Shown here: piece after piece, positions 22,679 through 48,342 of the stretch
How positions within the stretch are numbered: position 1 is the first letter of the stretch
Layout of the letters: every line of letters starts with the position of its first letter
From: Propioniciclava flava
GTDB lineage: Bacteria; Actinomycetota; Actinomycetes; Propionibacteriales; Propionibacteriaceae
DNA length: 64,000 bases
Assembly: GCF_004126535.1 (NCBI RefSeq)
Contig: NZ_PPCV01000001.1
Coordinates: forward strand, 310,001 to 374,000
Direction of reading: 5' to 3'
Notes under the pieces: generated by a model
Told to the model about the DNA's origin: nothing
Seen by the model: the letters and a program-made list of their open reading frames with translations, nothing else
Databases searched by the model: none
Program-made: the position numbers and the translations under genes

Positions 22679-22890
22679 GCGACAAGACCGAGGCACTGGT
22701 CGTCTCGCCGTTGCTGGACAGCAGGGAGGTCGCCGCGTACTTGAAGGTCTCGGAGTCCACCCTGTCGCGGTGGCGCTCCGCAGGCACGGGGCCGCCGTTC
22801 CTGCGGCTTGGCGGAATCGCCCGGTACCGGCTCGATGCCGTGGATCGCTGGCTGGCTGAACTGGAACACGACCATGCCTCGAAGGGCTGA
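22675..22890 (+). CDS. Excisionase-like helix-turn-helix protein
   Basis: A 71-residue MerR/AlpA-type (HTH_17) protein: LLDSREVAAYLKVSESTLSRW followed by the wing GTGPPFLRLGGIARYRLDAVDRWL. GTG start overlaps the preceding stop as GTGA. It overlaps the integrase start by 17 bases, the usual xis-int arrangement of actinobacterial integrative elements. It probably acts as recombination directionality factor, though its integrase partner is now broken. Confidence 0.85.
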   Translation: MSDKTEALVVSPLLDSREVAAYLKVSESTLSRWRSAGTGPPFLRLGGIARYRLDAVDRWLAELEHDHASKG

Positions 22891-23968
22891 GCCGCAGCCC
22901 ACCGCTGAGCCCAAACCGGTGCCGCCGATCGGGGTGAAGGTCTCCACGGACATGGAGCGGCGCTCCTACGGCATCCGTGCCCGCGCCCGGTGGACCGACC
23001 CGACCACCAAGCGGCGTGTCATCCGCTCGGAGATAGTGCGGGACGAGGCGGCGGCGCACGAGTTCTTCGACCAGCTCCGCAACTCATCGACCAAGGGCAT
23101 GGACGTGTCCATGACGTTGTTGGAGTTCGTCACCTCCATCGGGGACAGGTGGGCGCGCGGCCTGGACCCGACCTCCACCGGCGAGACCTACGGCTACGGG
23201 TTGAAGCTGCGAGTGCTGCCCGCGCTCGGACACCTGCCCGTCACTCAGATCACCGCCGGGATCATCGACCGCACCATCGACGAATGGGAACAACGCCACG
23301 GGGCGTCCACGATCAAGAACACCATCGCCCCGCTCGTGAGAGTGCTCGATGAGGCGGTGCGCGACGGGTTGCTGACGATCAACCCGGCGAAGAATCGCGC
23401 CAAGCGGAGCCTGAACCGCAACGCCTTCCGCGGCCAGTCCGCTGAGCAGGCCTCTCCGCGGGCGCACGCGATCCCGGACATGAAGACCCTCAACCGGCTC
23501 GCCAGGGCCTGCGGCAAGGTGCACCAGTCCTACAGCGACTTCGTGATGCTCGCCGCGCTGCTCGCCGCACGGTCCTCGGAGGTGTCCGGGCTACAGGTCG
23601 GGGACGTCGACTTCGACAAGAACCTCGTCGTGATCCACCGGCAGGTCTTCCCCGGCAAAGGCGGCCTGGTCACCAAGCCGACCAAGAGCCGCAAAGAACG
23701 CCGCGTGCCGATCCTGGAACCGCTGCGGCCCGTGCTGGAACGCCTTACCAACGGCAAGCAGCCCGAGGACTCGTCGCTGGTCGGCCCGAAGGGCGGCTAC
23801 CTCACCACCGCGACCGTCCGCGACGCCACCAATTGGGACGGCATCGTCGCGAAGCTCGGACTGCCCGACCTCACCCGGCACGGCCTGCGCCACACCGGGG
23901 CGACCTGGATGGCCGACGCCGGCATCCCGCTGCACGTTCTGCAAGGGGGTATGTCGAGGCTGAGCTAG
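22874..23968 (+). pseudogene. Tyrosine integrase, C-terminally truncated
   Basis: A 364-codon remnant of a tyrosine recombinase. It has an N-terminal arm-binding/AP2-like part, a SAM-like core-binding domain (about residues 80-170), and a catalytic domain with Arg233 (AARSSEV) and His336-x-x-Arg339 (RHGLRHTGATW). The frame runs into unrelated sequence at HVLQGGMSRLS and stops. The expected final block with L-G-H and the nucleophilic Tyr is missing, so the protein cannot catalyse recombination. The junction is near 23948. Confidence 0.87.
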
Positions 23969-24252
23969 CCGATCTGGAACACCGGCTGACACCCGCCGCG
24001 CTGACCCGACTCATCGACGTCATGGCAACCCTGCAACCTGGAGACACAAGTCTGATTGATCTCTATGCGAACAAGGGAGCTGCCGACCCAGTGATGGTGG
24101 CCTGCGCAGTAGAGGCGCAGAAGGCCGAGGACGACAGACTCGTCTCGGACACCTGGATCATCGTCACCGACGACAAGGCTGTAACCGCGACGGCCCGGCA
24201 CTTCGGGCTCAGAACCCTCCCCAGCGTCGATTTCCGCGCGCTGTTCCTGTGA
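23948..24252 (+). pseudogene. PIN-like protein, 3' fragment fused to integrase end
   Basis: Starting at the integrase breakpoint, another frame encodes YVEAELADLEHRLTPAALTR, then NKGAADPVMVACAVEAQ and WIIVTDDKAVTATARHFGLR. The pattern A-D-P-V-M-V-A-C-A ... V-T-D-D-K is the C-terminal half of a PIN-like ribonuclease (DUF4411-type) toxin. The N-terminal half with the first Asp residues is absent. A short product from ATG 24021 is conceivable but would lack a complete active site. Confidence 0.55.
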
Positions 24253-24313: not shown

Positions 24314-25042
24314 CTATCGGTCGCGACGGTTGTCGGATCGTGTTCGAAGGTAGTCGATGTAGTCCCCGCGGAACATGCGTCGAACTCGCGGGCGCACTCC
24401 TCGGTTGATGTCCTCGACGTACTTCTCGAGCCTGGCCGGATTCCTGCCCAACCACCCGTGGGCGATGACCCATCCCGCCAACGCGCTCCCATCTAGGTGG
24501 TATCCGGCATCGTGCAGCGCCAACAGCGCCGAGACGACCTCATCCTTCTCATACCCGGCGCTGATCGTGTTGTTGTGGTTCATCGTCAGCGTCATGGACT
24601 TCATTGCCTCTTCGACCACCGGATCGAGTCGAGGCATCGGTTCATCCCAAGCAGCCGTGTCGCCGAGCATCTCTGGCTGGACCTCCGCAACCCAAGGGCG
24701 CAGCCTGTCCTCGTCCCACGAGACGACGCATAGCGCACGAATCCTGTTCGCGTTCCCGCGGGTGAACTCGCTGATGTCGTTCTGGTCCGCCCATGCCATC
24801 AGGGCCGGCCCGGAGCCACGCATGTAGGCGCCACCTCGCGCGGTGACGTGGTCAACATCACTGTGGCGTGTAACGAACTGCTCCAGCAAGTCGTTGTGGC
24901 TGAGATTGCCCTTCAGGTGGGTCCAGACGGTGACGTGGTCGCCGTCCTCCATGTGCTGGATGCACCACTCCATGCCGGCCTTGAGGCCTTCGTCGTCGGG
25001 ACTCGTTATCGCGACCGGATAGCCGGCTCTGTGTTCGAACAT
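24314..25042 (-). CDS. Unknown protein divergent from Gabija-like module
   Basis: A 242-residue soluble protein; start ATG 25042 follows a strong GAGGAGATCC site. No family is recognised. Visible features: DGDHVTVWTHLKGNLSHNDL near residue 35, RGGAYMRGSGPALMAWADQN near 70, a C-terminal basic stretch (NRGVRPRVRRMFRGDYIDYL). The first part (residues 20-75) could be an alpha/beta fold. It has no signal peptide or membrane segment. It shares a 221-bp intergenic region with the OLD-type nuclease gene and may be an accessory or an independent cargo gene. Confidence 0.7.
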   Translation of the reverse strand: MFEHRAGYPVAITSPDDEGLKAGMEWCIQHMEDGDHVTVWTHLKGNLSHNDLLEQFVTRHSDVDHVTARGGAYMRGSGPALMAWADQNDISEFTRGNANRIRALCVVSWDEDRLRPWVAEVQPEMLGDTAAWDEPMPRLDPVVEEAMKSMTLTMNHNNTISAGYEKDEVVSALLALHDAGYHLDGSALAGWVIAHGWLGRNPARLEKYVEDINRGVRPRVRRMFRGDYIDYLRTRSDNRRDR

Positions 25043-25263
25043 GGATCTCCTCGCGTTGACTTCGCACTCGTCGCCAATTGTGGCGGTTGGCACTGACGGT
25101 AACCCGACATCGTGTGCTCACCACCGCGCGTATTCCTCGCCCGGCTTTCGGGCGAGCCCACCAGGCGAGCGGACAAGCGGGGAGTTCCCCCGAGCGTCTC
25201 CCCGTGCAGCGCCCGGGTCGCAGCTACGCTCACACTGCAGAAGTTCTACAGCGAGGTTGCCCG

Positions 25264-27033
25264 ATGATGCTCCGCCGACTCCGAGTCGAACACTTCCGTG
25301 GCATCGAACATATGGAGTGGGCTACAAATCGCCGTCTTGTCGGGCTGGTCGGAGCGGGCGACAGCACGAAGACCACGCTGCTGGATGCCATCGGGCTTGT
25401 GCTCAACCCGAACTACAATCCGCAGTTCTCCGACGCCGACTTCTTCGCCTTCGACCTCACCAAGAACATCGTGATTGAGGCGGTCATCACCCAGTTGCCG
25501 GACAACCTCGTCAAGGAGAGTCAGCTCGGCAAGGACCGCTCCGGGGTCATGCCGGACGGGTCGCTAGTGCATGATCCCGTCGATGACGCCGAAGAGTGCC
25601 TTGTGGTCCGACTCACCGTGACACCTGAACTCGAGCCCACATGGGAAGTCACCCGACCAGAGTCAGACGATGTCCGACCGATCACCGCGAACCAGCGACG
25701 CCAACTCGGCTTCTTCCGCCTGGGCGAGCGACCCGACTTCCACCTGCGCTGGGCACGCGGTTCAGCGCTGTCAGATCTGACCGGCGGCGATGGCGCCTCA
25801 TCCGTCGTCCTCGACGCGCACCGTGACGCCCGGGCGGCGGTGTTCAACGCGCAGCCCAACGCCCTGCATGCTGCGGCCGAAGCGGCGCAGAAGTCTGCGA
25901 GAGATTTCGGTGCAGCGGTGTTCAGCGGACTCCGTCCCGGCCTCGAACCCGGTTCGGCAGCTTCCGCGCACGCCTTGATCCTCCACGATGGCGACGTGCC
26001 GCTATCGAGCTTCGGACTCGGCACACGGCGGCTGACGAGCTTGTCGATCCAGGATTCGGCGATGGCTGGCGGGTCGATCATTGCCATTGACGAGGTCGAG
26101 CACGGTCTCGAGCCGCACCGGTTGGCGCAGACGCTTCGTCGCCTCAAGAAGCGCACTGATTCCGGCAACTTGCAGGTCATCATGACGACTCACTCGCCTA
26201 TCACGGTGGAAACGCTGAGCGCTGTCGACCTTGTCGTCGTGCATGCTGACGGTGCCGGTGGCACAGTCTGCTGGCCCGTACCCGAGGACCTCGACAACGT
26301 GCAGGGGACGCTTCGCAGCGCTCCGGATGCGCTCCTCGGTCGGCGGGTGCTGGTAGGAGAAGGGGCTACCGAGGTCGGGTTCTTGCGCGGTCTGATCCGC
26401 CACTGGGACGCCGAGCGGATTGCCGCGGATCTGACTCCCGCAGCCGCGATCGGCACTGTCCTGGTGAATGGCAGAGGCGGGACGCAGCCGACCCAGCGAG
26501 CCGGGAACTTCCGGCAGCTTGGCTACCCGACATGTCTGTTGATCGATAATGACGACCGCACCATCGATCTCTCGGTGACCAATGCCGAGAATGCCGGCGT
26601 CGTCGTGCATCGCTGGGCGTTCGGCAACGCACTCGAGGACGAAGTGATTCAGACCCTCCCGGCCGAGGGCCTGCAGGCGGTCGTCAACCTTGCCGTGGAC
26701 ATCAGGGGTGAACAGTCGATCCGAGCTGTGGTCAGTGCACAGCTGGGCAACAGACCGCTGACGGGTACCAACGTGGCCGCCTGGCAGGTTCAGGCTGAAG
26801 TCGATGAACCGACGATCCGCACGGCCATCGCGAACGCTGCCACCACAAAGGACAAGGAATGGTTCAAGCGCGAGGATCGAGGCGAGGAGCTGGCTGAGGT
26901 CGTCATCGCTCACTGGAGCGATCTTGGCGACACCAATCTGCTGAAGGTCATCGGCGATCTGCGAGCGTTCACCTATCCCTCAGCACCACACCCACCAACG
27001 CCGGAGGGCGCGGAGCAGCACGTCCATGGGTGA
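25264..27033 (+). CDS. OLD-family ATPase/TOPRIM nuclease (GajA-like)
   Basis: A 589-residue protein, close to the length of GajA. Start ATG 25264 has a GAGG site 7 nt upstream. The ABC-type ATPase comes first: P-loop GLVGAGDSTKTT (Lys36), signature-like LSSFGLGTRRL (about 248-257), Walker B SIIAIDEVEHGLEP (271-284), H-loop IMTTHSP. The TOPRIM domain follows: VLVGEGATE (Glu366, Glu370) and LLIDNDD (Asp428, Asp430), with Lys-rich KDKEWFK near 531. The P-loop is odd: Thr replaces the Gly before the invariant Lys. The next gene overlaps by 8 bp and encodes a UvrD-like helicase, the Gabija pairing. GajA nicks DNA when nucleotide is depleted (known for the family). Confidence 0.85.
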   Translation: MMLRRLRVEHFRGIEHMEWATNRRLVGLVGAGDSTKTTLLDAIGLVLNPNYNPQFSDADFFAFDLTKNIVIEAVITQLPDNLVKESQLGKDRSGVMPDGSLVHDPVDDAEECLVVRLTVTPELEPTWEVTRPESDDVRPITANQRRQLGFFRLGERPDFHLRWARGSALSDLTGGDGASSVVLDAHRDARAAVFNAQPNALHAAAEAAQKSARDFGAAVFSGLRPGLEPGSAASAHALILHDGDVPLSSFGLGTRRLTSLSIQDSAMAGGSIIAIDEVEHGLEPHRLAQTLRRLKKRTDSGNLQVIMTTHSPITVETLSAVDLVVVHADGAGGTVCWPVPEDLDNVQGTLRSAPDALLGRRVLVGEGATEVGFLRGLIRHWDAERIAADLTPAAAIGTVLVNGRGGTQPTQRAGNFRQLGYPTCLLIDNDDRTIDLSVTNAENAGVVVHRWAFGNALEDEVIQTLPAEGLQAVVNLAVDIRGEQSIRAVVSAQLGNRPLTGTNVAAWQVQAEVDEPTIRTAIANAATTKDKEWFKREDRGEELAEVVIAHWSDLGDTNLLKVIGDLRAFTYPSAPHPPTPEGAEQHVHG

Positions 27034-28495
27034 CGACTCCTCAATTGGCGACGCCGTTCAGGCGATGCTGGGCACATCGCCGTGCTCGGTAACGCTCCCC
27101 GCTGGTGCAGGCAAGACCGAGCTGATCGCGGCCGCAGCGGCGGACGTCGCCACACGAGGCGGCACAAGCCTCGTGCTGACCCACACGCATGCCGGCGTGG
27201 ATGCACTCCGTCGGCGGATGAAGAAGTTCGGGATCGCAAACGACGCAGTCTCGGTCCGCACGATCGACTCGTGGTCGTACGACCTCATCGCTCACTTCCC
27301 GGTGCTGGCAGGGCTCGCCGTGCCCGCCACGCCGAACTGGAGCAGGGTGGCGGACTACCACCGTGCCGCCGCGCGAACCGTGGGCACGGGGGCCGTGGAG
27401 CGAATGCTCAAAGTCAGCTACACGAACCTGTTCGTTGACGAGTATCAGGACTGCCTGACCGATCAACATGAGCTCGTGCTCGCGCTCGCTGCGGTTCTGC
27501 CCACGGCTGTGCTCGGCGATCCTCTACAGGGCCTGTTCAACTTCGGCAGGAACCAACCTGTCGACTGGTACTCGGACGTGCACCCGTACTTTCCGGCAGT
27601 CGACGTAGACCACCGCCCGCGCAGATGGGACCCGGACCACCAGGACCTCGGAGCATGGCTCGTCACCATCCGCGACCAGCTACTCAACGGATTGCCGATC
27701 GACCTCACATCGACGCCCGTCCAATGGATACAGCGATCTGATCCCCGAACCTACATAGGCGTCTGCTACGCAGCCCTACGGCTTGAAGGCACGATCGCCG
27801 TTTTGGGCCGGTTCAGGCCGGACTGCGTCAACGCCGCGGGCGCCTTAGGTGGCTCGTACTCGGTGATGGAGGCCATCGACGAAAAGGTGCCAATGGCCCT
27901 AGCCACCAAGATCGACACCAAAGGCGGCCCGGAAGTGGCTGCAGCCACCGTCGAGTTCGCGGTCGGTTGCACGAGCGGCATTCCGAGCCACATCTCGGCC
28001 GCCAAACGCAGGCAGCTCCGCGAGGGGGGATCGTTCACAACAAGGAACCCGGCCCTGAGGCCCGCCTATGAGGCGGTCGTCCAGGTACGCGATACTCCCA
28101 CTCCAGCCACGGTCGGCACTGCACTCCGACTTCTGAGCAAGCTCCCCGGCGTCACTATCCACTGCCGTGACGCATGGAACGAAGTCAGGCGATCTGCCGC
28201 TATGGCAGTGACCGACGGCTGCACGGTGACCGAAGCACTCGAACTCACGCGAGGCCACACCCGAGTCGCGGGACGGAGACCATCCGGGCGTGTGGTCTCA
28301 CGGCCACTACTCGTCAAGGGACTGGAGTACGACCACGTCATCATCCTCAACCCCGCCAACTACAGCGCACAGGAACTCTACGTTGCTCTCACCAGAGGGT
28401 CGAAGTCGGTCACAGTGATCAGCGACACCATGGTGCTTCCGGCCGTCAGAATGGCTACGCGTCCAGCGATGCCCCGACAATCTCACAAGGGATAG
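27026..28495 (+). CDS. UvrD/Rep-like helicase (GajB-like)
   Basis: A 489-residue superfamily 1 helicase: motif I TLPAGAGKTEL (Lys30), motif II FVDEYQD (138-142), a motif III-like VLGDPLQGLFNF, and motif VI QELYVALTRGSKSVTVI near the C-terminus. This is much shorter than UvrD and equals GajB in length. ATG overlaps the end of the upstream nuclease gene, so the two are co-translated. Family knowledge: GajB partners GajA in anti-phage defence. The KGLEYDHVIILNP motif (motif V) is intact, so the ATPase is probably functional. Confidence 0.85.
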   Translation: MGDDSSIGDAVQAMLGTSPCSVTLPAGAGKTELIAAAAADVATRGGTSLVLTHTHAGVDALRRRMKKFGIANDAVSVRTIDSWSYDLIAHFPVLAGLAVPATPNWSRVADYHRAAARTVGTGAVERMLKVSYTNLFVDEYQDCLTDQHELVLALAAVLPTAVLGDPLQGLFNFGRNQPVDWYSDVHPYFPAVDVDHRPRRWDPDHQDLGAWLVTIRDQLLNGLPIDLTSTPVQWIQRSDPRTYIGVCYAALRLEGTIAVLGRFRPDCVNAAGALGGSYSVMEAIDEKVPMALATKIDTKGGPEVAAATVEFAVGCTSGIPSHISAAKRRQLREGGSFTTRNPALRPAYEAVVQVRDTPTPATVGTALRLLSKLPGVTIHCRDAWNEVRRSAAMAVTDGCTVTEALELTRGHTRVAGRRPSGRVVSRPLLVKGLEYDHVIILNPANYSAQELYVALTRGSKSVTVISDTMVLPAVRMATRPAMPRQSHKG

Positions 28496-29934
28496 GTGGT
28501 GTTTCACGGAACATTGGGCAAGCTCCGGAAACCGCCCGGATCCCGGCTATAGGCACAGACCAAGAGGAACGGGCACCGCATCGCCCGGCCACGATCATCG
28601 CTAGTGCGGCCCCCACCGGCCTGGCTAGGAACCGCCCCGAGAGGTCAGGATCGGCCGCGACTTGCAGCCGCAAGTAGGTGCCGAACGCCAAAGCAACTGG
28701 TGGACTGCCGCCGGTGACGCTTGGTCGCCGCAACGCCTTGGTCGATGGAAACTGCCCGCGGCTGATGGCCCACACAATGAACGGCACCTAGGTCTACCCC
28801 ACCGCCCAGCTGGAACCTGCAGACCCACCACTGCCGCCAGACCTTCCACGGAGGAACCATCACGCCGCCCGATAGGCGCCGGCACCGACAGACAGCTTGG
28901 CGACCCGGCGAAGGAAGTCCGAACGTCGCGCCAGGGGGTCAAAGTTCGACCGGCGTTGACAACGCGCAGCGGGGGAACGTGGGGAACCTGCCCGTGACAC
29001 GCCTGTTCACAGGCCAGTAGGCCAGTCCGGCGGCCATGAGAGTCTGGGAACGTTTTTCGGTAACGCCGGTGGGTTCAGCCGACGAACCTCCTCCAACGAG
29101 ACGGCGCGGCACGGGTCGCGGGTGAATCGGTCGTAGGCCGGCACGACCTCGTCCCGCACTCACGCCTCGGCCGCACGGTCGCGGGCGGCCAGGCTCCGCA
29201 GGCCCGGACCACCTCGCTTTCGGACGCATACGCCCCCGACGCGGCCCGGGCACGCACCATGCCGGCCATCCCCAGCGGCAGGGTCACGCGCATCTGCCTG
29301 GTCGTCCGTACGGAGCACCTCACCGTCTGACTGAGTCCTACCCCCGGCTGGGGTAGCCGGGCCACCCTGACCACGATCCTCGGATCCTCCCCCCCCACAC
29401 CCCAACCAGACCTCCCCCACCCCGACAAGCACCTCTCCTACCCATCAGAGAAGCCTCCCCCTTCAATCACCAGGTCACCTCCACGCAACCGGCTCGCCTC
29501 GAAGACCCTAATTCACGAAGGAACACACCTTCTGCACCAAGGAATCGTGGTGATCGGTCTATTTGTGCCGCGTTCTGCGCATGTCTGCATGGAATAGCAC
29601 GTTTACTTCGGCTGGACCGGACTGATGTGATCCTGCCGAAGCGAATCACGGGCATCCGTCCTGGCGGCGAGCGTAGCGCGGAGACCCCCGAGGCGTCCGC
29701 GCACATGGCGGGTGGCCGATCCGGACACCGAGCATCAAGTTGCGCAAATGTGCTTGCTGGTCGTCCTGATCGTCACATTTCTGGGCATAGGGATAGGTAG
29801 AAGGGCTTACTTCGGCGGCGATTTTGTCCGAATCGAGCCGTTTTTTCGGCTTAGGGATATGAGAGCCCGTTTCGGCGGTGGCCACGCAGGGCGTGTTCGT
29901 CTGCCTGTACTGGAGTGAGGAGGTGGTCGTGGTG
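28496..29934. other. 1.4-kb stretch without an intact gene
   Basis: Between the helicase gene and the first relaxase no frame on either strand has a convincing protein or ribosome site. It contains the broken parD-like gene at 29075-29293 (minus strand) and, from about 29480, sequence visibly poorer in G+C. A small hairpin (AGCCG 29836-29840, CGGCT 29847-29851) with a T6 loop lies 80 bp before the relaxase. The last part could include the transfer origin of the old element, but I see no recognised nic site. Confidence 0.6.
29075..29293 (-). pseudogene. Broken ParD-like antitoxin gene
   Basis: Reading left from ATG 29293 gives MRVTLPLGMAGMVRARAASG then AYASESEVVRA, the ribbon-helix-helix start of ParD/CC2985 antitoxins. 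The expected continuation GLRSLAARDRAAEA appears in another frame, implying a 4-base loss. It is then cut by TGA where Trp is expected, after which RDEVVPAYDRFTRDP resumes. Two independent lesions make it a pseudogene. No ParE-type toxin frame is recognisable beyond it. Confidence 0.65.
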
Positions 29935-32611
29935 ATGGGGATGCACAAGCTGACGGCCGGATCGGGGTATGAGTACCTGACTCGGCAGGTGGCCCGCAAT
30001 GATTCGGCCACCCCGGGCCGCTCCCGGCTGGCCGACTACTACGAGGAGAAGGGCGAGGCGCCCGGGGTCTGGGTGGGATCAGGCCTGGCCGGCATCGACG
30101 GCCTCAATCCGGGCGACGTGGTGACCGCTGAGCAGATGGACTTCCTGTTCGGGAAGGGCCTGCATCCACTGGCCGCCGAGCGCCTTGCCGCTCTGGGGCC
30201 GGATGCGACCGAGCAGGAGCGGCGCGACGCGGTCCGGCTGGGCCGGCCCTATCGGCTCCCGGACCCCGGCCACAGCCTGTTCCGGCAGGAACTCACCCAC
30301 CGCTACGCCGCCTGGAACCTCGACCATGGCAACAAGCCCACTGCGAAGCTGCCCGACGACGTCCGAGCGCGGCTGCGCACCACGTTGGCGATCGAGTGGT
30401 TCACCGCCATGGAGCACCACCCCCCGAGCCCGCGCCAGCTGGCCGGGTTCATCACCAGGATGTCGCGGCCGCCGGCCACGCCGGTGTCGGGCTACGACTT
30501 GACGTTCTCGCCGGTGAAGTCGGTGTCGGCCCTGTGGGCGATCGCCGACCAGCACACCGCCGACCTGATCGAGAAGGCGCACTGGGCTGCGATCACCGAG
30601 GCGCTGGCGTTCATCGAGGCCGACGTACTCAAGACCCGCAAAGGGCATGCCGGAGTCGAGCAGCTCGACGTCCGAGGGCTGGTCGCGGTCGCGTTCGTGC
30701 ATCGGGACAACCGGACCGGTGACCCGGACCTGCACACCCACGTGGCGGTGGCGCACAAGGTCCAAGCGATCAGCGACGGGCAGTGGCGGGCGATCGACGG
30801 CCGGGCGATGCACCAGGCGATCACCGCCGCCTCGGAAACCTACAACACCGCCCTGGAAGCCCACCTGGGTGCGGCGCTCGGGCTGCGATTCATCGACGTG
30901 CCCCGCACGGACGGCAGGCGGCCCGTCCGGGAGATCGCCGGCATGGATCCGCGGCTGATCCAGCTGTGGTCGACCCGGCGGCGGGAAATCAGTGTCCGTG
31001 CCGGCGAGCTGGCCGGCATGTTCCACAACGAACACAGCCGCCCACCCACGGCCGCGGAGCGGCAGGAGCTGTACCAGCAGGCCACCCTCGAGACCAGGGA
31101 GGCCAAGCACGAACCGCGCTCCCTCGCCGAAGAGCAGGCCGCCTGGGCCCGCCAGGCTCTCGATCAGATCGGCGAGGACGGTCTGCAACAGATGTTCAGC
31201 CGCATGTTCAACCAGCCCCGGCTGCACGCACCCGCCCTCGACCCGGACTGGTGTCGGCAGCTGGCCGCCAACGTGATCAGGAATGTCGAGGAGGGCCGGG
31301 CGGAGTGGCAGACCTGGCACGTCCGCGCCGAAGCCCAACGCTGCGCCCGCGCCGCCGGCATCCGGTGGGACCAGCTCGACCAGGCCATTCCACGGCTGGT
31401 CGAGGTCGCGCTGGCCATGTGCGTCAGCCTCGACCCGCCCGAGGACGGCATCCGCGAACCCGACACGCTGCGCCGCGCCGACGGGACCCCGGTGTACCGG
31501 GTGGCCGGATCGACCCGCTACACCTCCCAACGCGTCCTGTTCGCCGAACAACGCATCATCGACGCCGCCGGACGCACCGGCGGACGCACAGCTGGCTACA
31601 ACTCGGTGGATGTCGCCCTGCTCGGCGAACACGCCAACGGCACCGAACTGAACCCCGGCCAGGCCCAGCTCGTCCGCGATCTGGCCACCTCCGGACGACG
31701 CGTCCAACTCGCCCTCGCCCCGGCCGGGACCGGCAAGACCACCGCCATGCGCACCCTCGCCAACGCCTGGACCAACAGCGGCGGCACCATCCTCGCCCTC
31801 GCCCCCTCAGCCACCGCCGCCGCCCAGCTCGGCGAAGAACTCGGCCACAGCATCCACGCCGACACCCTCCACAAGCTGGTCTACGAGATCGGGCAGGCTC
31901 GGCCGGCCGAGTGGGCCCAGTCAGTGAATGCGAACACGATGCTGATCATCGACGAGGCCGGGATGGCCGATAACCCTGCGCCTGGACTACGTGATCGGCT
32001 GGGCCCTCGACCGCGGCGCCAGCATCCGGCTCATCGGCGACGACCAACAGTTGGGCGCGATCTCGGCCGGCGGCATCCTGGCCGACATCGTCACCGCTCA
32101 CGGCGCGGTCCGGCTCGACCAAGTAATGAGGTTCACCGATCCCGCCGAAGCCCACGCCACCCTTGCCCTCCGTGACGGCGACCCCGCCGCCCTCGGCTAC
32201 TACCTCGACCACGACCGCGTTCACGTCGGCGATGTCACCACCACGTCCGAGCAGCTGTTCGACGCCTGGCTCACCGACAAACGGGCTGGGCTGGACGCCA
32301 TCATGCTCGCCGGCACCCGCGAGCTTGTCGCCGTCCTCAACCAGCAGCCCCGCGAGCAACGCCTGGCCGGCAGCCGACCACGGCACGAAGCCACCCTGGC
32401 CGACGGCAACCGGGCCTCGGTCGGCGACACCGTCGTGACCCGACGCAACGACCGTCGACTGCGCGCCGGCAACGGCTGGGTCAAGAACGGCGACCGGTGG
32501 GACGTCGATGGCGTCCACCCCGACGGGTCACTCGACGTCCACAACCCGTCCACCCACCGGCGGGTCAGTCTGCCGGGCGGCTACGTCACCAACCACGCCG
32601 AGCTCGGCTAG
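29935..32611 (+). pseudogene. MobF relaxase/helicase (TraA-like), 5' part, frameshifted and interrupted
   Basis: The gene starts at ATG 29935 or GTG 29929 after AGGAGG. N-terminal MHKLTAGSGYEYLTRQVARN with DYYEEKGEAPGVWVGSGLAG is the MobF relaxase domain; the metal site is in HRDNRTGDPDLHTHVAVAHK. The helicase domain has APAGTGKTTAMRTL and IIDEAGMAD. At about 31972 one extra A (GATAACC for expected GATACC) shifts the frame; in the new frame LRLDYVIGWALDRGASIRLI and GDDQQLGAISAGGI continue the helicase. The gene then ends at a TAG created at the insertion junction 32609-32611. Its 3' part lies at 42331-43735. Confidence 0.88.
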
Positions 32612-33547: not shown

Positions 33548-36500
33548 TCACAAGCCGCGTGCTGGCCCGTCGCGCCGCGGGTCAGGGCGGTAGGGCTCGC
33601 GCTCGAATGGGTCGTGGAGTTGTCGCGCCCGCTGTGCCACACGCTGCTTCTGCTCTTGTTCGGCCCGGTGGGTCTCGATGCGCCTGGCGGCATCGTTGAC
33701 GGGGAGGTTGCGGAGCTCGTCCGCCTCTGCCCGGGCCAAGGTGGCTCGGGTACGCGCATCGCGGACATTGCGGCGTGGGTTGACCGTGCCCATGCCGAGC
33801 TGGCTACGGCGAGCGTTGTCGGCCCCGTATTCGTTGACGAGCAACGACATGCGCTCTTGTTGGTGTCGCTGCCGCGCCGCTTTTCGTTCGGCGTGTGCCG
33901 CTTCGACGGCGCGTTCGGCGTCGCTCACACGGGGGTCGTTCTCGGCTCGTCGCGCAGCCGCCCGGGCCGCCCATGCGGGGAGCGCCTCGACGGTGCGAGG
34001 CAGCTCGTCACCCCAGGCGTCGCGTACTTGCTCCCGAACGCTCCGGGCCTGTCCGGTCGCGACCTGGTGCTCCGCGCGGGCGTTGCGCCTGCCGAACCGT
34101 CCGACGGTGACGAGCCGTGCACTCGCGGCCGTCTCTATCTCTACGGCGGCGACGTAGGCCGCGCCGTCGCGTTCCGCTTGATCGGTGAGAGGCTGGGCGA
34201 CCTCAGCGCGCACCCGCTCGGCAGTGTCCTCGGCGTTGCGGAGCAGGGTGGTGGTAGCGTCGTCCTCGGCCTGGTGCGCAGCATGTTGAGCGTCGAGCCT
34301 GTTGGCGATCTGCTCCCAGCGTGCCGCCGCGCGTTCGGCACGCTCGGCCTCCTGGTCGAGACGGGCGAGTTCTTCGGAGACGAGCCTGACGGGGCCATCG
34401 CTGATGAGTCCGCGCACCGCTTCCTTGGCGGCGCGCGCGGCGTGATCGAGGCCCCGGTCGGCGGGGTAATGTTCCATCGCGTCGATGTACTGCGCCCGCG
34501 CGTCCGCCATGTCCACGGCGACGACGTGCAGGCGGTTCTGTTCGCGGCCTCTGGTCATGCCAACGTAGATGCCTGCCGCGGTCGTCGCCTCCGACAGGAT
34601 CGTGTGCGAGGCATCGACGGTTGCACCTTGGACGCCATACGCGGTCGCCGCGTAGGACAGATGCGCGTGCTCACCCACATACTCAGCGGGCAGGGCGATG
34701 GTACGGGGGTTCTTGCGCCCGCTGCCGACCTCGCGGGCGTAGACGGTGCCGTGGTCGGTGACGTGCCGGACGACCCAGGTCTGCCGGTTCGCGACCCCGA
34801 GCGTGGTGTTGTTTCGGCGGGTCTGGATCAGGTCACCGGCCCCGATAGGGAGACCGTCGCTGCCGGTCGCCGTCACCGCGTCATCGACCTCGCCCCGCTC
34901 GATGCGTCCGGTGCGGATGCGCTCGTTCAACGCCGCCGCCTCGTCGTTGGTGGCGACAATGATCGCCTCACCGTCACGAGCATGGGCGGCGATGTGCTCG
35001 CGCGCCCGCTCCTCATCGGCGTGCAGCGTCACCAGGCTCAGCGCGGCGAGCCGGTCGAACACCTCGCCGGGGTCCACTCGGTCGCGCATCTCCAGCGTGA
35101 GGGCGGCGTAGTCAGGGCTGGTGAAGCGGTGGAGTTCGGTCATGTCGTAGGTACGTCCGCGAATCTGCGCGGCCATGTCGAGCACTCCGCCGCGACCGAC
35201 AGCGGGGAGCTGTGCTCGGTCGCCCACGAGCGCGACCGTCGCCCCCGCCTCAGCCGTGACAGTGAGCAGGGCGTGGGCGGTGTCCTGGTCGAGCATCCCC
35301 GCTTCATCCACGATCACGCGCATGCCCCGCGCGAGCCGCGCGTCTTCGGGCGGGCCGGTGTAGGTGCGCCCGTTCTCGTGGTCGGTATCGCCAGGGGTGA
35401 GACGTGTCCACACGCCGTCACGGTTCCACCGCCACCCGTGCGCGTGCACCAGCGCCGCAACCGATGTCGCGGGTACGCCGAGTTCGTCGTGCGCGACCTG
35501 AGCGGCCCGCAACGTCGGTGCGACCACCCGCGACGCCCGGCCATGCTCGGCGGCGACGGTGATCGCGGTGCGCAGCATGGTCGTCTTCCCGCTTCCCGCC
35601 GCACCCTCAACGATCACGAGTGGATCGGTTGAGGCAACCACCGCAGCCGCGAGGGTCTGTCCCTCATCCAGTCCGGCGGCTTGCCCGGCTCGGGTCACGT
35701 CGGGATGCCCTGACTCCCGGCGCGGTGTCGCGGCGGCGAGTTGGTCGCGCAGCGCGGTCTCGGCAGCGATCACGCTGAGGCTGCTCAGGTGCGCGACGTG
35801 CTCCGGCGTCGGCGCGCCAGGCGGCAAGACGGACAAGCAATCCGAGACGGCAAGCTCAGTCGCCAGGGCGATGAACTCCCGCAACTCAGCGGGCGTCGCC
35901 CGCACGCTGTGCTCGGTGGTGATCCGCGTGACGTGTTCCTGGACAGTGTGCCGCGTCCACGCCGACGCACTCGCCGCACTCCGATCCAACGCCCGCGATG
36001 CAACCTCCTGCACGGCCAGGCCATCCACCGACACCACCGGTTGCACCGACCGACGCTCGAGGCCTGCGGGGTCGTATCCGGCCTCGCGGAGTTCCTGCAC
36101 CCACCATTGCTCGTCCTTCAGGTCAGCGGGCTTCTTCCCCGGCCGCTGGTGCGTCCACGCGATGCCTTGCAACCTGGCCGTCATCGCCGGGCCAAGCGCC
36201 TCGCCAGGATGCTGCGCCTTCCATTCGGCTTCGAGACGGTCGAGGTTGCGCTTGATCTGTGCCGAGCGCTTCGACATCACCCCGTTGAACGGCTCCAACT
36301 CCGCGACCTCCCCGGTCAATGCGTCGAGCGTGAGGCCATGCTTGTCGAGCACCGCGGCGAGCTGTGGATGAGCGGCGATCACCGCCGTACCCAGGGCCTG
36401 GATCGCACCCTGCTGCTTGAACAACGCGGCCGTGTCCAGCGCCCGCCACTTCCCGGCCGCCCACACGCGCGTGCCGATCTGCATATGTATATGCCGGTGT

Positions 36501-37003
36501 GGATCACCCGCCCGTGAGGTCTTGTGCCGGATGCCGACGACCTGCATGTGTTCGATGGGCACGACCTCCCGCGCCTCACGAGGGCCGACCCTCGTCACGG
36601 AGTGCTGACCGAGCCACCGGCGTATCTCCGCGAGGGCGTCCTGCTGTGCGGTGTCGAGTGCGTCGGATACCTCCGGGTGGAGCGCGGCGGCGACCGATAA
36701 GGACTTGGGGGCGTTGATCGTCATCTCTGCGAACAGCGGTGATCCCTTCGTGCCCTCGGCTGCGGCGCGTGGGGTACCCATCGACTCGCCAGTGACGGGG
36801 TTGGTCCAGTCCACCCACCCCTCGTACTCAGCCGCTGTCAGCGACCGTGCAGTGGTGACCTCGCTGCTCCCGTCGAGCACCGTGTACTCGGCAACGGCGT
36901 TGTCTGCGCCGAGGTAGTACTCGTCAGCGCGGGAGCGGTCGGCCTCGACATAGCAGCGTGCGGCGGCCCCGCTGCCGCGAAACAAGATCACCCCGCCCTT
37001 CAC
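33548..37003 (-). CDS. MobF relaxase/helicase of the nested element
   Basis: A 1,151-residue conjugative relaxase. Start GTG 37003 (VKGGVILFRGSGAAARCYVE) follows GGGAGGT at 5 nt; in-frame ATGs farther upstream fall inside a hairpin. The relaxase domain has YYLGADNAVAEY and the metal-binding DPHRHIHMQI. The helicase domain (from about residue 470) has EGAAGSGKTTML, VIVDEAGMLD, VGDRAQLPAVGRGGVLD and YAATAYGVQGATVDASHTIL. The tail is a long basic, glutamine-rich coiled coil. It is uninterrupted, unlike the relaxase it sits within, and supplies mobilisation for the element. Confidence 0.9.
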   Translation of the reverse strand: MKGGVILFRGSGAAARCYVEADRSRADEYYLGADNAVAEYTVLDGSSEVTTARSLTAAEYEGWVDWTNPVTGESMGTPRAAAEGTKGSPLFAEMTINAPKSLSVAAALHPEVSDALDTAQQDALAEIRRWLGQHSVTRVGPREAREVVPIEHMQVVGIRHKTSRAGDPHRHIHMQIGTRVWAAGKWRALDTAALFKQQGAIQALGTAVIAAHPQLAAVLDKHGLTLDALTGEVAELEPFNGVMSKRSAQIKRNLDRLEAEWKAQHPGEALGPAMTARLQGIAWTHQRPGKKPADLKDEQWWVQELREAGYDPAGLERRSVQPVVSVDGLAVQEVASRALDRSAASASAWTRHTVQEHVTRITTEHSVRATPAELREFIALATELAVSDCLSVLPPGAPTPEHVAHLSSLSVIAAETALRDQLAAATPRRESGHPDVTRAGQAAGLDEGQTLAAAVVASTDPLVIVEGAAGSGKTTMLRTAITVAAEHGRASRVVAPTLRAAQVAHDELGVPATSVAALVHAHGWRWNRDGVWTRLTPGDTDHENGRTYTGPPEDARLARGMRVIVDEAGMLDQDTAHALLTVTAEAGATVALVGDRAQLPAVGRGGVLDMAAQIRGRTYDMTELHRFTSPDYAALTLEMRDRVDPGEVFDRLAALSLVTLHADEERAREHIAAHARDGEAIIVATNDEAAALNERIRTGRIERGEVDDAVTATGSDGLPIGAGDLIQTRRNNTTLGVANRQTWVVRHVTDHGTVYAREVGSGRKNPRTIALPAEYVGEHAHLSYAATAYGVQGATVDASHTILSEATTAAGIYVGMTRGREQNRLHVVAVDMADARAQYIDAMEHYPADRGLDHAARAAKEAVRGLISDGPVRLVSEELARLDQEAERAERAAARWEQIANRLDAQHAAHQAEDDATTTLLRNAEDTAERVRAEVAQPLTDQAERDGAAYVAAVEIETAASARLVTVGRFGRRNARAEHQVATGQARSVREQVRDAWGDELPRTVEALPAWAARAAARRAENDPRVSDAERAVEAAHAERKAARQRHQQERMSLLVNEYGADNARRSQLGMGTVNPRRNVRDARTRATLARAEADELRNLPVNDAARRIETHRAEQEQKQRVAQRARQLHDPFEREPYRPDPRRDGPARGL

Positions 37004-37007
37004 GCTG

Positions 37008-37039
37008 ACCTCCCTCATGAGTCGTCTCATGAGGGAGGT
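37008..37039 (-). promoter_or_regulatory. Hairpin sequestering the relaxase ribosome binding site
   Basis: A perfect 14-bp inverted repeat with a 4-nt loop. On the minus strand it reads ACCTCCCTCATGAG - ACGA - CTCATGAGGGAGGT, immediately before GTG 37003. The right arm is the Shine-Dalgarno GGGAGG; the left arm is its exact complement. In mRNA the hairpin would block ribosome loading, suggesting low or conditional relaxase translation. A DNA-binding operator role is the alternative. Confidence 0.65.
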
Positions 37040-37162
37040 GCGCATCACGGCCCCGCCGTGGCATAAGTGCATCCTTTGAAGCAGGGAGAGTGGGAGGGTC
37101 GTCAGGTCGGTGGCTCGCGGGGCGAGTCTGCGGCGGGTGTCTTTCGGCGGGGTGAGCTGCTG

Positions 37163-43735: not shown

Positions 43736-43836
43736 AGCTCGGCTACAAGCTCATCCGCGTGTGCATCGAAGACCTGGACAAGCTCTTCCCAGCCATCCCT
43801 ACTGACCGACCCGAGGATCGCTACCGCCGGTGGTGA
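43609..43836 (+). CDS. AlpA/excisionase-like HTH protein
   Basis: 75 residues: WISLREAAKIYAVSTYTLRRRI then SSGDLPAVKLGYKLIRVCIE, an HTH_17 (MerR-like) DNA-binding domain. ATG follows AGGAAGGAAG. It overlaps the end of the relaxase frame and is probably its operon partner, acting as regulator or excision factor of the older element. Confidence 0.8.
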   Translation: MAVPQTQRVTPEWISLREAAKIYAVSTYTLRRRISSGDLPAVKLGYKLIRVCIEDLDKLFPAIPTDRPEDRYRRW

Positions 43837-43852
43837 GTAGCGTGCACGCCGC

Positions 43853-43905
43853 TGTTCAAATGGAGACTCTGTTCAGCTATATTGAACACATGGGTCTTTT
43901 GAACA
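43853..43905. promoter_or_regulatory. Nested palindromic operator and leaderless promoter of AbiE-like pair
   Basis: Two inverted repeats share one centre (43879): outer arms TGTTCAA (43853-43859) and TTGAACA (43899-43905), inner arms TGTTCA (43870-43875) and TGAACA (43883-43888). TATATT (43878-43883) serves as a -10 box, putting transcription start on the ATG at 43890. AbiEi antitoxins are known to bind paired inverted repeats in their own promoter, which fits. Confidence 0.75.
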
Positions 43906-44915
43906 CGCAGGGGGAAGAGTTGGCGCGACTCATCCAGCAGGGCTTGGCACGCGCCGGGATGAAGGACGTCACCGCCTTGTCGGTGCAGCCTTCCGGTGGC
44001 CGCCGGCTCGTCCTCCGCCACGGGTCGTCGCTACATCGGGTCCAGGTTCACCCCGTTGGCCGTAACCCAAGGACGCCCGAGGAAGAGCCGGGATGGTTGC
44101 CGCTTCTAGTGAACAGCGGCTTTGACGACACCACCGTGGAGCGCCTGGCGCAAGCGGACGCCAGCTTCCTGGACGAGCGTGGCAACGCTCACTTGTCGCT
44201 TGACGGGCGCACGGTGCTGTTCGCACGGGCCGACAAACCCGGCCGCATCGGAATGCATGCCAAGTCGGCAAGCCTGGAAGCGCAGGCGAAGCGGGCCCCG
44301 GGCGCCTTGGCACTCAACCGCGCCAGCCACCGGGTGGCGTTCGCGCTCCTGGCCAACCCTGACCTAGCGGCCAGCCCAGTGCGCACGCTGGCCGCGGCCG
44401 CAAGAGCCTCGATCGGCACCGTCCACAACACGCTTGCCCAGCTCACCGATGCCGGGCTGCTGTTGGACGGCCGACTCCACGACCCCGGCCGGTTGCTGGA
44501 CGCGTGGGCAGAGTCGTATCGAAGGCTGGCCGTGCGTCCGCTCTCGAGCCGGACGCTGTACGCGGCCGACGATCGTTGGTCAGACACGGTGCGAGCTGAA
44601 GCCCAGGACGTCGTCCTCCTCGGCGGAATCGCCGCGGCCGCGGTCCTGGACGATCAGGTTCGCGCCACTGATGGCATCGTCTACGCCGCAACTCTCGGGC
44701 CTGCCGTGACTCTGCTGCGCCTCACGGCCGACCCCACCCCGTTTCGCGTCGAAGTACGAGAGCGCTTCTGGGGAGACGGCCTGCCCGCGTCGCGGCTGAA
44801 CCTGGTGCCGTCGGTGCTGATCTACGGCGACCTGCTCCGCGACGGCGACTCCCGCTCCGTTCAGGTCGCGACCAACCTCAGGAGGAACGACGCGCACCTT
44901 CGCACCCTTGGCTGA
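43890..44915 (+). CDS. AbiEi-like antitoxin/transcriptional regulator (type IV TA)
   Basis: A 341-residue protein; start ATG 43890 is inferred from the -10 box 7 nt upstream (leaderless). The middle holds a winged helix (RVAFALLANPDLAASPVRTL, AARASIGTVHNTLAQLTDAG LLL split by region). The C-terminal half is the AbiEi-type region, ending in VPSVLIYGDLLRDGDSRSVQ. It overlaps the downstream nucleotidyltransferase gene by 8 bp. Together they match AbiE-like type IV toxin-antitoxin systems, where the antitoxin represses the operon and counteracts the toxin without binding it directly. Confidence 0.75.
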   Translation: MGLLNTQGEELARLIQQGLARAGMKDVTALSVQPSGGRRLVLRHGSSLHRVQVHPVGRNPRTPEEEPGWLPLLVNSGFDDTTVERLAQADASFLDERGNAHLSLDGRTVLFARADKPGRIGMHAKSASLEAQAKRAPGALALNRASHRVAFALLANPDLAASPVRTLAAAARASIGTVHNTLAQLTDAGLLLDGRLHDPGRLLDAWAESYRRLAVRPLSSRTLYAADDRWSDTVRAEAQDVVLLGGIAAAAVLDDQVRATDGIVYAATLGPAVTLLRLTADPTPFRVEVRERFWGDGLPASRLNLVPSVLIYGDLLRDGDSRSVQVATNLRRNDAHLRTLG

Positions 44916-45660
44916 GGCCGACCTTCCTGTCCCCGGCGAGCTGCTGGATGCCCTGGTCGATGCCCTGGGTGCTCCGGGCCGGTGGGTTCTCATCGGTGCC
45001 GCCGCCCGAGACCTCGCGCTCATCCTTGGAGGCGTCAATCTCCCCCGCCGCGCGACCAACGACGTCGACATCGCTATCGCCGCCCACGACGCCGTCGACT
45101 TCGACGCGATGCTGGCGACCATCGGCGAACCAACCCGAGCCTGGCAGCGCAGGACACTGCTCGGACAGCAGGTCGACGTCATGCCCTTCGGCGACCTGGA
45201 AAGCGACGACGAGGTCCATATCCACGAGTCCAGCCTCAGCGTCCTCGGCTGCGCTGAAGCAGCCACCAACGCGGATATCGTCACCCTGCCGTCCGGCAGA
45301 CTGCTGCCTGTCGCTCCCCTCGAACTCATCGGCGTTCTGAAACTCATCGCGTTCGCCGGACGCCAGCCCGCCGAGACCAAGGATGCCGACGACCTGCTTA
45401 TCGTGCTGCGCGCTGCCTCGGAGGGCATCTATGGCGAGGAGACCTGGAACGACGAACCCGCCATGGCGGCCACCGAGTACGACCACCAGCTGGCAGGCGC
45501 CCACAGACTGGGCCGAAGGGGCATTGCGTGTTTCGGCACCGGACGCGCGGAGCGCGTAGATCTGGTCGCGACCGAGGTCCAGCGAGTAGTGACGTCGGCC
45601 TGGCGCGGATCACACCAGGAACTACTGGGGGCGTGGCTGGCAGGGCTGCGTGCAGTCTGA
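44908..45660 (+). CDS. Nucleotidyltransferase toxin-like protein (AbiEii-type)
   Basis: A 250-residue nucleotidyltransferase-fold protein. The catalytic signature is VLIGAAARDLAL followed by RRATNDVDIAIA (paired Asp of the metal site), then VDVMPFGDLE with a further acidic residue. The best start is TTG 44908; AGGAGG at 44880-44885 is 22 nt away, so an unusual start or re-initiation is likely. In AbiE systems such enzymes modify tRNA or other targets and cause growth arrest. Partner of the upstream antitoxin. Confidence 0.75.
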   Translation: MAEADLPVPGELLDALVDALGAPGRWVLIGAAARDLALILGGVNLPRRATNDVDIAIAAHDAVDFDAMLATIGEPTRAWQRRTLLGQQVDVMPFGDLESDDEVHIHESSLSVLGCAEAATNADIVTLPSGRLLPVAPLELIGVLKLIAFAGRQPAETKDADDLLIVLRAASEGIYGEETWNDEPAMAATEYDHQLAGAHRLGRRGIACFGTGRAERVDLVATEVQRVVTSAWRGSHQELLGAWLAGLRAV

Positions 45661-45783: not shown

Positions 45784-47055
45784 TCAGAACGCGCGATTGG
45801 TGGGTTCCTGATGCGACGTGTCCATTGAGCCGAGAATCGTCACGACTTCGGGAGGGATCTCAAAACGAAGCGCCTGCACTCCTCCGTCATAGACGGGGGT
45901 GAGCATCGGAGAGACACCGTCGTCGATGTAGCCCTCAGCGGCGAGGTCCGCCGTGATTCGAGCCGTTGGACGCGTGAATCCTCGTAGCATTCGATCCGCC
46001 CCGTAGCCGCACAGGGCGTATAGCGAGTCGCGATCAATAGACCCGCCGTTCTGAGCGGCCTGCCGAATCACCGACTCCTGCTCACGACCTTCGTAACGCA
46101 GTCGAGCGAGCAGTTCCTCGACCGCCTGCTCGGTCCAGATCGGTGTGTCGGATGTCGTACTGCGCTCGACGTCCGAACGGGCTTCCTCCGAAACCATGAC
46201 CGCTAGAACATCCGCGTGCTCAATCAGCTGTAGGGGGCGCAGCATCACGAGTGCAGCCCCACTCCGCTTCTGGAACTCATCTGCAAGCTCGCTCCTAGGG
46301 CCGAGCAGTTGCCCGCGGTGTTTCCACCACCAATCTTCCTTCTCATCACCTGTGACGAGGACGAGCGGCAACGCACGTGCCTCTGCTTCGAGCATGGACT
46401 CAAGCCACACCAAGTAGTCCCCGGTCGAACCGTCAGCGCCCCCGACATCATCCTTCTTCGCATCTCGAAAGCCAGGGGGAAGGCCCAACTGAGTCCTTCG
46501 GGCAGCCTCCGCCACGGCGTCTTTGTGTTGCTCGGGAGGGAGCGGGTCGCCGACTCGATCGGCCAGCAGGGGCTGAAGGGCGAGAGTCACTGAGTCCTGG
46601 CCAGCGTCGTAAGCGAAGGTGGAGGACTCGTTGGTGACTCCGTCTGCCGTGGTTGAGCACGTCTCGAACGCCTGTCGTACGCTCCGGAGCATCTGCTGCT
46701 CCACTGCGACATCTGCAGCCGTCTGCTTCGCCCAAACCCGTACGGCGTCCTGGACTTGGTTCTCAGCCCTAGACAGCGCAGCGCCCAGCTGCTCGGTAGC
46801 GGTGTTACGCGCGTCGATTGCTGCGAGCCTGTTGCGCCAGAACTCGCGAGCGGCCTGGTGGCTGACAAACACCCGGTCTCCGAGCGCCTCAAGAACTGAG
46901 ATCAGCGCCTGGCGGGCGCTCGGGCTGAATCGGTAGAAGCTGAGAAGCACGTTAGCGTCCAGGCTCACCAAGCCGTGCGCAAGCCCATCTCGTGCTTCAT
47001 CGCGTGTCTGTGGGATCGCGCCTTCGTGGCCGGTCGTTAGTCCTCTATCGGGCAC
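45784..47055 (-). CDS. PIN-like domain protein (DUF4935 type)
   Basis: A 423-residue protein, GTG start. The N-terminal PIN-like nuclease region is VSLDANVLLSFYRFSPSARQ ... FVSHQAAREFWRNR, and later acidic residues are in TGDYLVWLESML and LVLVTGDEKEDWW, matching the PIN acidic triad. The C-terminal 120 residues include a winged-helix-like part (ARLRYEGREQESVIRQAAQN). Such proteins are common in defence islands and are presumed RNases. It stands alone, convergent with the AbiE-like pair. Confidence 0.75.
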   Translation of the reverse strand: MPDRGLTTGHEGAIPQTRDEARDGLAHGLVSLDANVLLSFYRFSPSARQALISVLEALGDRVFVSHQAAREFWRNRLAAIDARNTATEQLGAALSRAENQVQDAVRVWAKQTAADVAVEQQMLRSVRQAFETCSTTADGVTNESSTFAYDAGQDSVTLALQPLLADRVGDPLPPEQHKDAVAEAARRTQLGLPPGFRDAKKDDVGGADGSTGDYLVWLESMLEAEARALPLVLVTGDEKEDWWWKHRGQLLGPRSELADEFQKRSGAALVMLRPLQLIEHADVLAVMVSEEARSDVERSTTSDTPIWTEQAVEELLARLRYEGREQESVIRQAAQNGGSIDRDSLYALCGYGADRMLRGFTRPTARITADLAAEGYIDDGVSPMLTPVYDGGVQALRFEIPPEVVTILGSMDTSHQEPTNRAF

Positions 47056-48128: not shown

Positions 48129-48177
48129 CCGACTACTTACGCGCCCGCAAAGTGCCCCTTACAAGGACATACACACG

Positions 48178-48251
48178 TCGGGCTGACAGGATTTGAACCT
48201 GCGACCCCCTGACCCCCAGTCAGGTGCGCTACCAAGCTGCGCCACAGCCCG
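48178..48251 (-). tRNA. tRNA-Pro (anticodon GGG)
   Basis: A complete 74-nt cloverleaf on the minus strand. Acceptor stem CGGGCTG/CAGCCCG, D-arm GCGC-AGCTTGGTA-GCGC, anticodon stem-loop CCTGA-CTGGGGG-TCAGG with anticodon GGG, T-arm GCAGG-TTCAAAT-CCTGT and discriminator A. CCA is not encoded. It marks the right side of the accessory island. Confidence 0.93.

Positions 48252-48294: not shown

Positions 48295-48342
<48 letters not shown>

Follow-up and report, generated by a model that had tools for sequence, protein, structure and literature searches.

In the window analysed here, a stretch of 64,000 nucleotides from Propioniciclava flava (contig NZ_PPCV01000001.1, positions 310,001 to 374,000), we find a pair of genes of the Gabija type, one of the commonest defence systems, whose nuclease carries a threonine in place of the glycine that precedes the P-loop lysine. 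Across the subfamily to which this nuclease belongs, the same residue has changed at least six times while its neighbours stayed fixed. The subfamily itself is already listed as Gabija in PADLOC, and what is added here is the recurrent P-loop substitution that runs through it; apart from this residue, which makes the pair mildly unusual, it is an ordinary member of a known family.

Residue 35 of the P-loop across the subfamily

The preliminary description of this DNA had reported a nuclease gene of 589 codons and a helicase gene of 489 codons that overlap by 8 bp, with Thr instead of Gly before the lysine of the P-loop GAGDSTKTT. The coordinates were verified and the substitution was confirmed at the level of the codon:

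25264..27033 (+): GajA-like class 2 OLD nuclease, 589 aa, with an ABC ATPase domain (residues ~1-350), a TOPRIM domain (~360-450) and a C-terminal helical region (~457-570); based on open reading frame (ORF) calling, PADLOC PDLC04168, Pfam AAA_21/AAA_15 and an AlphaFold2 model
27026..28495 (+): GajB-like UvrD/Rep-type superfamily 1A (SF1A) helicase, 489 aa; based on the ORF, PADLOC PDLC04173 and a model
27026..27033 (+): overlap of both reading frames, 8 bp, from the ORF coordinates
25351..25377 (+): Walker A/P-loop GAGDSTKTT, G30-A-G-D-S-T35-K36-T-T
25366..25368 (+): codon ACG, Thr35, replacing the Gly before Lys36

The loop GAGDSTKT does not fit the Walker A pattern GxxxxGK[ST], which is the motif of ordinary P-loop ATPases and which none of the passages cited below makes a defining feature of Gabija. 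We aligned 53 OLD proteins, of which 41 form what we call here, after the P-loop, the GxGD subfamily of the window nuclease (tree support 100/99 for 40 of them and 86/81 with L006 added). Residue 35 is Gly in 21 of these 41 rows, Thr in 16 (the window protein and 15 others), Ala in two, Ser in one and Cys in one, so that the textbook pattern would overlook 20 of the 41 sampled members; the 12 other OLD rows have Gly in 11 cases and Ser in one. The rows were drawn from 69 loci and make up a convenience sample, in which actinobacteria and plasmids are plentiful, rather than a census. Seventeen loci were omitted, namely three copies of the window, nine repeat fetches and five partial or broken loci, and residue 35 in the latter is Gly in L028, L043 and L046 and Thr in L069, the loop being missing in L026.

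In a tree built with column 35 excluded, at least six changes between Gly and non-Gly are required within the subfamily, and likewise between Thr and the rest; the changes are counted irrespective of their direction, and the rows L006, L012, L022 and L051 have long branches. Here, as in the other trees, the first residue of every protein was set to Met. A topology that unites the 20 non-Gly rows in a single clade was rejected by the approximately unbiased test (p-AU 1.5e-10), which rules out that the non-Gly state arose only once. The preliminary description had seen in the threonine a likely diverged functional branch: this is supported for the subfamily as a whole, whereas Thr35 itself marks no single branch but comes and goes.

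All four Thr codons are in use among the 16 rows (ACC in seven, ACG in seven, ACT and ACA in one each). In seven of the eight pairs of genes tested, nonsynonymous divergence (dN) was 0.12-0.18 against a synonymous divergence (dS) of 1.0-1.4, and in the eighth the values were 0.26 and 1.73; the resulting dN/dS of 0.09-0.15 over the eight pairs, a rough estimate given that dS is close to 1 or exceeds it, shows purifying selection on the gene. Taken together, the repeated change, the variety of Thr codons and a dN/dS of about 0.1 mean that Thr35 has recurred as a variant of genes that are under selection. A chance motif or an assembly error is ruled out by the presence of Thr35 in 16 subfamily rows from varied genomes and plasmids, and decay of the gene by both frames being open, by the dN/dS and by the retention of Thr through synonymous codons.

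Of the 20 subfamily rows with a known actinobacterial source (the window, phylum genomes and named records), 14 have Thr35, among them Rhodococcus, Micrococcus, Arthrobacter and Nostocoides; a plasmid of Phyllobacterium (L041) and a viral contig (L022) have it as well. Nor does a scan at the DNA level point to a chance motif: degenerate letters standing for G[A/P]GDxTK[S/T][S/T] matched one of 396 genomes drawn from the phylum, which was the window's own, and the same pattern reversed gave one match, in a different genome. No description of a P-loop substitution at this site was found in the literature searched by motif strings and by wording, which is no proof that it is unpublished.

Two individual loops deserve mention. 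In the Phyllobacterium zundukense plasmid the P-loop reads GPRDSTKTT, and a gene for a Shedu nuclease lies next to it; this is a further non-canonical loop, outside the actinobacteria. In the Pseudonocardia plasmid pBCI2-2 (L020) the loop reads GAGDGCKTT, with the only Cys before the Lys in 53 rows.

Identity and descent of the gene pair

The preliminary description had called the pair Gabija-like and had proposed profile searches as a check, and these bear it out. The nuclease matches the PADLOC GajA model PDLC04168 over residues 1-571, that is at full length (4e-175), and the helicase matches the GajB model PDLC04173, also at full length (6e-139), although a PADLOC model name is an annotation and not a test of function. 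The older PADLOC GajA model PDLC00086 gave the nuclease 75.5 bits and the Old model 50.9 bits (a search with the Old model yielded one locus, which was not used). Pfam recognises AAA_21/AAA_15 and a sub-threshold OLD-like TOPRIM domain in the nuclease, and UvrD-type domains in the helicase protein. The pair is therefore a Gabija-type (class 2 OLD) system of a subfamily already labelled as such in PADLOC, and not of an unknown kind.

The remaining nuclease motifs that had been pointed out (signature, Walker B, H-loop, TOPRIM Glu and DxD) were all located, as GLGTRRL, IAIDE, TTHSP, GEGATE and DND; row counts below refer to the 41 subfamily rows or, where 53 is given, to the whole alignment.

26008..26034 (+): ABC signature-like motif SFGLGTRRL (residues 249-257)
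26080..26094 (+): Walker B IAIDE; Asp276 in 41/41 and Glu277 in 40/41 rows
26182..26199 (+): H-loop MTTHSP; His310, presumably the equivalent of H320 of Bacillus cereus GajA (BcGajA), in 53/53 rows
26356..26373 (+): TOPRIM GEGATE; Glu366 and Glu370 each in 41/41 rows
26545..26553 (+): TOPRIM DxD, here DND; Asp428 in 41/41 and Asp430 in 40/41 rows
26635..26637 (+): Glu458, in 53/53 rows, in the first helix past the TOPRIM strands of the model
26860..26868 (+): WFK motif; Lys535 in 41/41 rows
27101..27121 (+): helicase motif I, AGAGKTE, canonical
27437..27451 (+): helicase motif II, DEYQD
28310..28336 (+): helicase motif V region, LVKGLEYDH
28379..28399 (+): helicase motif VI, YVALTRG

The helicase also has GDPLQ. 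The residues invariant in the 41 rows are Gly30, Asp33, Lys36, Asp276, His310, Glu366, Glu370, Asp428, Glu458 and Lys535. The Walker B Asp is fixed in the subfamily, while nine of the 12 rows outside it have Glu at this site, and in that respect the ATPase of the subfamily is nearer to the textbook than that of the other rows. The TOPRIM ligands of the class 2 protein BpOLD (E400, E404, D455, D457, E508 and K562) are matched by E366, E370, D428, D430, E458 and K535, the equivalence of the last two resting on the alignment and on their order, since the spacing differs. Glu458, the sole acid past the DxD in the invariant lists of alignments A1 and A3, is likely the ligand of the second metal, and Lys535, as the presumed counterpart of BpOLD K562, is likely the catalytic lysine.

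Pairing with a helicase is a constant property of the subfamily: an ORF that matches the GajB profile lies on the same strand no more than 60 bp downstream in all 41 rows, and the two genes overlap at the predicted start in 38 of the 41 pairs. The helicase is split or shortened in three of the loci (L011, L024 and L049), which were kept in the counts. A GajB-profile match was also found downstream in nine of the 12 rows outside the subfamily, with far lower scores. Two outcomes had been named as evidence against the assignment, a phylogeny that puts the ATPase in another OLD class without Gabija relatives and homologues that are never paired with a UvrD-like gene; neither was encountered.

For the question of class, a tree of 27 rows was built (25 hand-picked from the 53, P2 OLD and YbjD; several branches are long), in which the GxGD subfamily groups with GajA of the PDLC00086 type and with the helicase-paired L007 and L052, apart from P2 OLD and YbjD (90/92, 94/90). 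A single clade of all helicase-paired OLD rows was not rejected (p-AU 0.361). Class 2 OLD proteins have a C-terminal helical region that the class 1 OLD of Thermus scotoductus (TsOLD) lacks, according to the cited passages of PMC7049728. The nuclease, whose 589 aa agree with a class 2 length some 50 aa greater than that of class 1, has such a domain, with helices from 457-464 through 558-570 in the model, and instead of being a stand-alone gene, as in class 1, it stands in tandem with a helicase. By the published definition, which is the tandem helicase, the pair is class 2/Gabija; by descent it is so on balance, but the B. cereus system of known structure is distant from it.

The AlphaFold2 models have a predicted local distance difference test (pLDDT) of 86.7 and a predicted template modelling score (pTM) of 0.84 for the nuclease, and of 91.1 and 0.87 for the helicase. 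In VIA-align, the ATPase and TOPRIM domains of the nuclease model match TsOLD with Z 20.4 and a root-mean-square deviation (rmsd) of 5.2 over 422 aligned residues, and ATP-bound GajA (8x5i_D) with Z 19.0 and rmsd 4.4 over 427; the matches also include many SMC/Rad50 heads, by the ATPase domain only. With the helicase profile, GajB is the best match in the PDB (68.2 bits; Rep 55.3).

Relatives of the nuclease are frequent on plasmids. A tblastn search matched 313 of 72,556 plasmid records, with 284 matches over at least 80% of the length and 197 records typed as conjugative, and none of 50,697 phage records. The single nuclease protein found no relative in viral contigs and three loci in genome contigs, and a profile found eight loci in the viral contigs. 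With the PADLOC model (E 1e-20), the nuclease was detected in eight of 198 family genomes and in three of 396 drawn from the phylum, the window's own genome being counted in both; the genus is represented by 12 further genomes, and none of these has it. Among 391 genomes of the order, profile A1 (E 1e-30) matched 15, including the window's own and two with GajA of the PDLC00086 type.

Probable function of the pair and possible role of Thr35

We consider it probable that the overlapping genes constitute a working Gabija-type defence system carried by an apparent mobile element. If the B. cereus system is a guide, the two proteins would form a complex with GajA as the oligomeric core, in which the ABC domain of GajA would bind nucleotides and restrain the TOPRIM nuclease, while GajB would bind DNA ends and hydrolyse nucleoside triphosphates (NTPs). 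Loss of NTPs in the presence of foreign DNA would then release two-metal DNA cleavage, and the phage would be stopped.

Several results weigh against this reading. Among solved structures the nuclease profile scores highest with TsOLD (85.8 bits), followed by PtuA (71.7) and BcGajA (58.5), and Foldseek likewise ranks TsOLD first (4.1e-18) and GajA after it (1.8e-15). For the helicase model, Foldseek lists UvrD and Rep before GajB (first at rank 27, 6.1e-10), and GajB is not among the 50 VIA-align matches listed. The spacing of the metal-B region is unlike that of both BpOLD and BcGajA. BpOLD T506, which lies two residues before the metal-B Glu and is stated in the cited passage to be absolutely conserved across class 2 (PMC6755086), corresponds to Ala456 in the window protein and to Thr in one of the 41 rows; the conserved residues listed for BcGajA in the passage cited are D511 and D513, without a Thr (PMC10822852), and therefore a Thr before the metal-B Glu is not defining for GajA. 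In the class tree, L032 and L037 lie towards the class 1 proteins although they too are paired with a helicase, and such pairing alone thus need not define one lineage. Published results on nucleotide sensing by the Gabija ATPase disagree with each other: the H320A mutation partly relieved the ATP inhibition of GajA alone (PMC8136825), whereas it did not relieve that of the complex (PMC10822852). Finally, no member of the GxGD subfamily with a tested defence phenotype came up, though no search was aimed at that.

The profile and Foldseek matches to TsOLD would suit a class 1 OLD protein that has merely acquired a helicase as a neighbour, in which case the pair would not be Gabija; the model also has no helix at 443-447, where, to judge from DSSP and the cited part of PMC7049728, Insert 3 of class 2 would be located. 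We regard this as very improbable, given the GajB-profile ORF downstream of every one of the 41 members, the C-terminal helical region that is absent from TsOLD, and the class tree, which disfavours class 1 identity with moderate weight owing to its long branches; of the solved proteins, TsOLD nevertheless matches best. It is also highly unlikely that the pair serves the maintenance or transfer of a mobile element rather than defence against phages: an integrase and TrwC relaxases do adjoin it and conjugative plasmids often carry its relatives, but relatives also occur in genome and viral contigs, and mobile elements of this kind commonly bear defence genes.

As for Thr35, it is most likely a tolerated substitution at a position that varies among small residues (Gly, Thr, Ala, Ser and Cys) next to a fixed phosphate-binding Lys, and the ATPase most likely still binds nucleotide; the trigger level may conceivably be affected. 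Thr35 might retune the sensor through weaker NTP binding, with release of the nuclease at a higher NTP level or by a different nucleotide and with the Gly/Ala/Ser/Cys/Thr series as a dial, which we think unlikely; that this glycine is an evolutionary dial, its exchange being selected because it retunes the NTP level of nuclease release, is quite doubtful. In small GTPases, replacing the Gly before the P-loop Lys abolishes nucleotide binding, and the repeated change at residue 35 takes place beside the invariant Gly30, Asp33 and Lys36 and involves small side chains only. Among the mutants described in the passages cited, YbjD K35A keeps the anti-phage effect with raised cytotoxicity (PMC13261556), TsOLD K34A loses ATP hydrolysis and P2 OLD K37A its lethal effect (PMC7049728), and the Walker A Lys of the retron Eco8 OLD is required for defence (PMC10568477). 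BcGajA K35A, however, in which the lysine next to this site is lost, had no influence on cleavage or on its inhibition by ATP in one study (PMC8136825), which makes it weak to infer altered sensing from one P-loop residue, and these divergent outcomes mean that the role of the ATPase domain differs among OLD proteins. Conservation of the ATPase motifs is, moreover, about equal in Thr and Gly rows (Walker A 0.87 and 0.89, signature 0.85 and 0.75, Walker B 0.70 and 0.71, D-loop 0.96 and 0.88, H-loop 0.85 and 0.83, respectively), although the Thr rows are also closer kin to one another. The absence of an effect of K35A in vitro, and the listing of BcGajA as non-hydrolysing for ATP in a review (PMC10568477), would fit a subfamily ATPase domain that is mainly structural and in which the Gly drifts neutrally among small residues; we think this less likely than not, and a purely structural domain would not need Lys36, Asp276 and His310, each found in 41 of 41 rows, and ATP hydrolysis by GajA was measured by another group (PMC10822852). 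According to the same paper, the ATPase-site mutations GajA H320A and GajB D162A/E163A abolish protection.

A residue that changes repeatedly amid fixed neighbours provides natural variants with which to probe whether nucleotide binding at this site sets the trigger of Gabija. If residue 35 were indeed a dial, these variants would form an allelic series supplied by nature for the study of nucleotide sensing in Gabija, and if its exchange is neutral, they are a curiosity.

Genomic setting and comparison with known systems

The pair is flanked by a tyrosine integrase (22808-23968) on one side and by TrwC relaxases (29878-32175 and 33548-37072) on the other, apparently within an integrated mobile element with putative ends. 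The helicase half (AAA_30) of the first relaxase is split over two overlapping frames (29878-32175 and 31991-32611, plus strand), which suggests that the gene may be frameshifted; the second (33548-37072, minus strand, 1174 aa) looks intact. A 259-aa ORF (24314-25093, minus strand) diverges from gajA; tblastn over the fetched loci, many of which have flanks of just ~1.5 kb, returned only the window copies of it. Neither this ORF nor that at 23833-24252 matched a Pfam family at E 0.001, and these two and six further ORFs of the element had no PADLOC match. At 43830-45660 (plus strand), a gene for an AbiEi_2-type antitoxin (43830-44915) is overlapped by the next ORF (250 aa); this is possibly an AbiE-like toxin-antitoxin pair, for which no PADLOC model matched at E 0.001, and a gene for a PIN_8-domain protein (45784-47055, minus strand; 1e-56) adjoins it.

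A full tRNA-Pro gene (48177-48251, minus strand) is directly preceded by a 5' half copy of another tRNA-Pro (~48295-48342, minus strand), an ungapped match of 48 bases with three mismatches that is followed by divergence. The half copy is likely a scar left by integration and would mark the right-hand end of the element. An exact-match script that compared the tRNA-Pro region with the remainder of the window found no direct repeat of 14 bases at a distance above 5 kb; nor did it find one for the tRNA-Phe region or, at 15-16 bases, for the flanks of the integrase. No empty site was shown among 13 genomes of the genus: 12 of the 13, the window's own included, have a close match to the core gene on the right, EngA (G528 has a weak match only), but the genes of the left flank have no close match in the other genomes (for one gene the best match is 56% identical, and another has weak partial matches only).

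Of the solved proteins, TsOLD (6p74, class 1) is the closest in sequence by profile and has the top Foldseek E-value, but the window nuclease differs from it in being paired with a helicase and in having helices that extend to residue 570. With the Gabija system of B. cereus VD045 (8jqb, 8sm3 and 8x5i), the window pair has in common the gene order, the sizes, the ABC ATPase and TOPRIM fold and the SF1A helicase. BcGajA is remote by sequence; its P-loop GMNDIGKT shares the Asp with that of the window nuclease but retains the Gly before the Lys, and its distal acids D511/D513 (as given in the cited passage of PMC10822852) have no clear counterpart in the window nuclease besides Glu458. Much closer are the nucleases of the plasmids Rhodococcus DN22 p4 and Micrococcus pSD10, which are 75-77% identical and share the GAGDSTKTT loop and the overlapping helicase, whereas the annotated flanking genes differ from those of the window. 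With the Gabija of PADLOC models PDLC04168 and PDLC04173, which both proteins match at full length, there is no difference in kind: the window pair belongs to the same subfamily.

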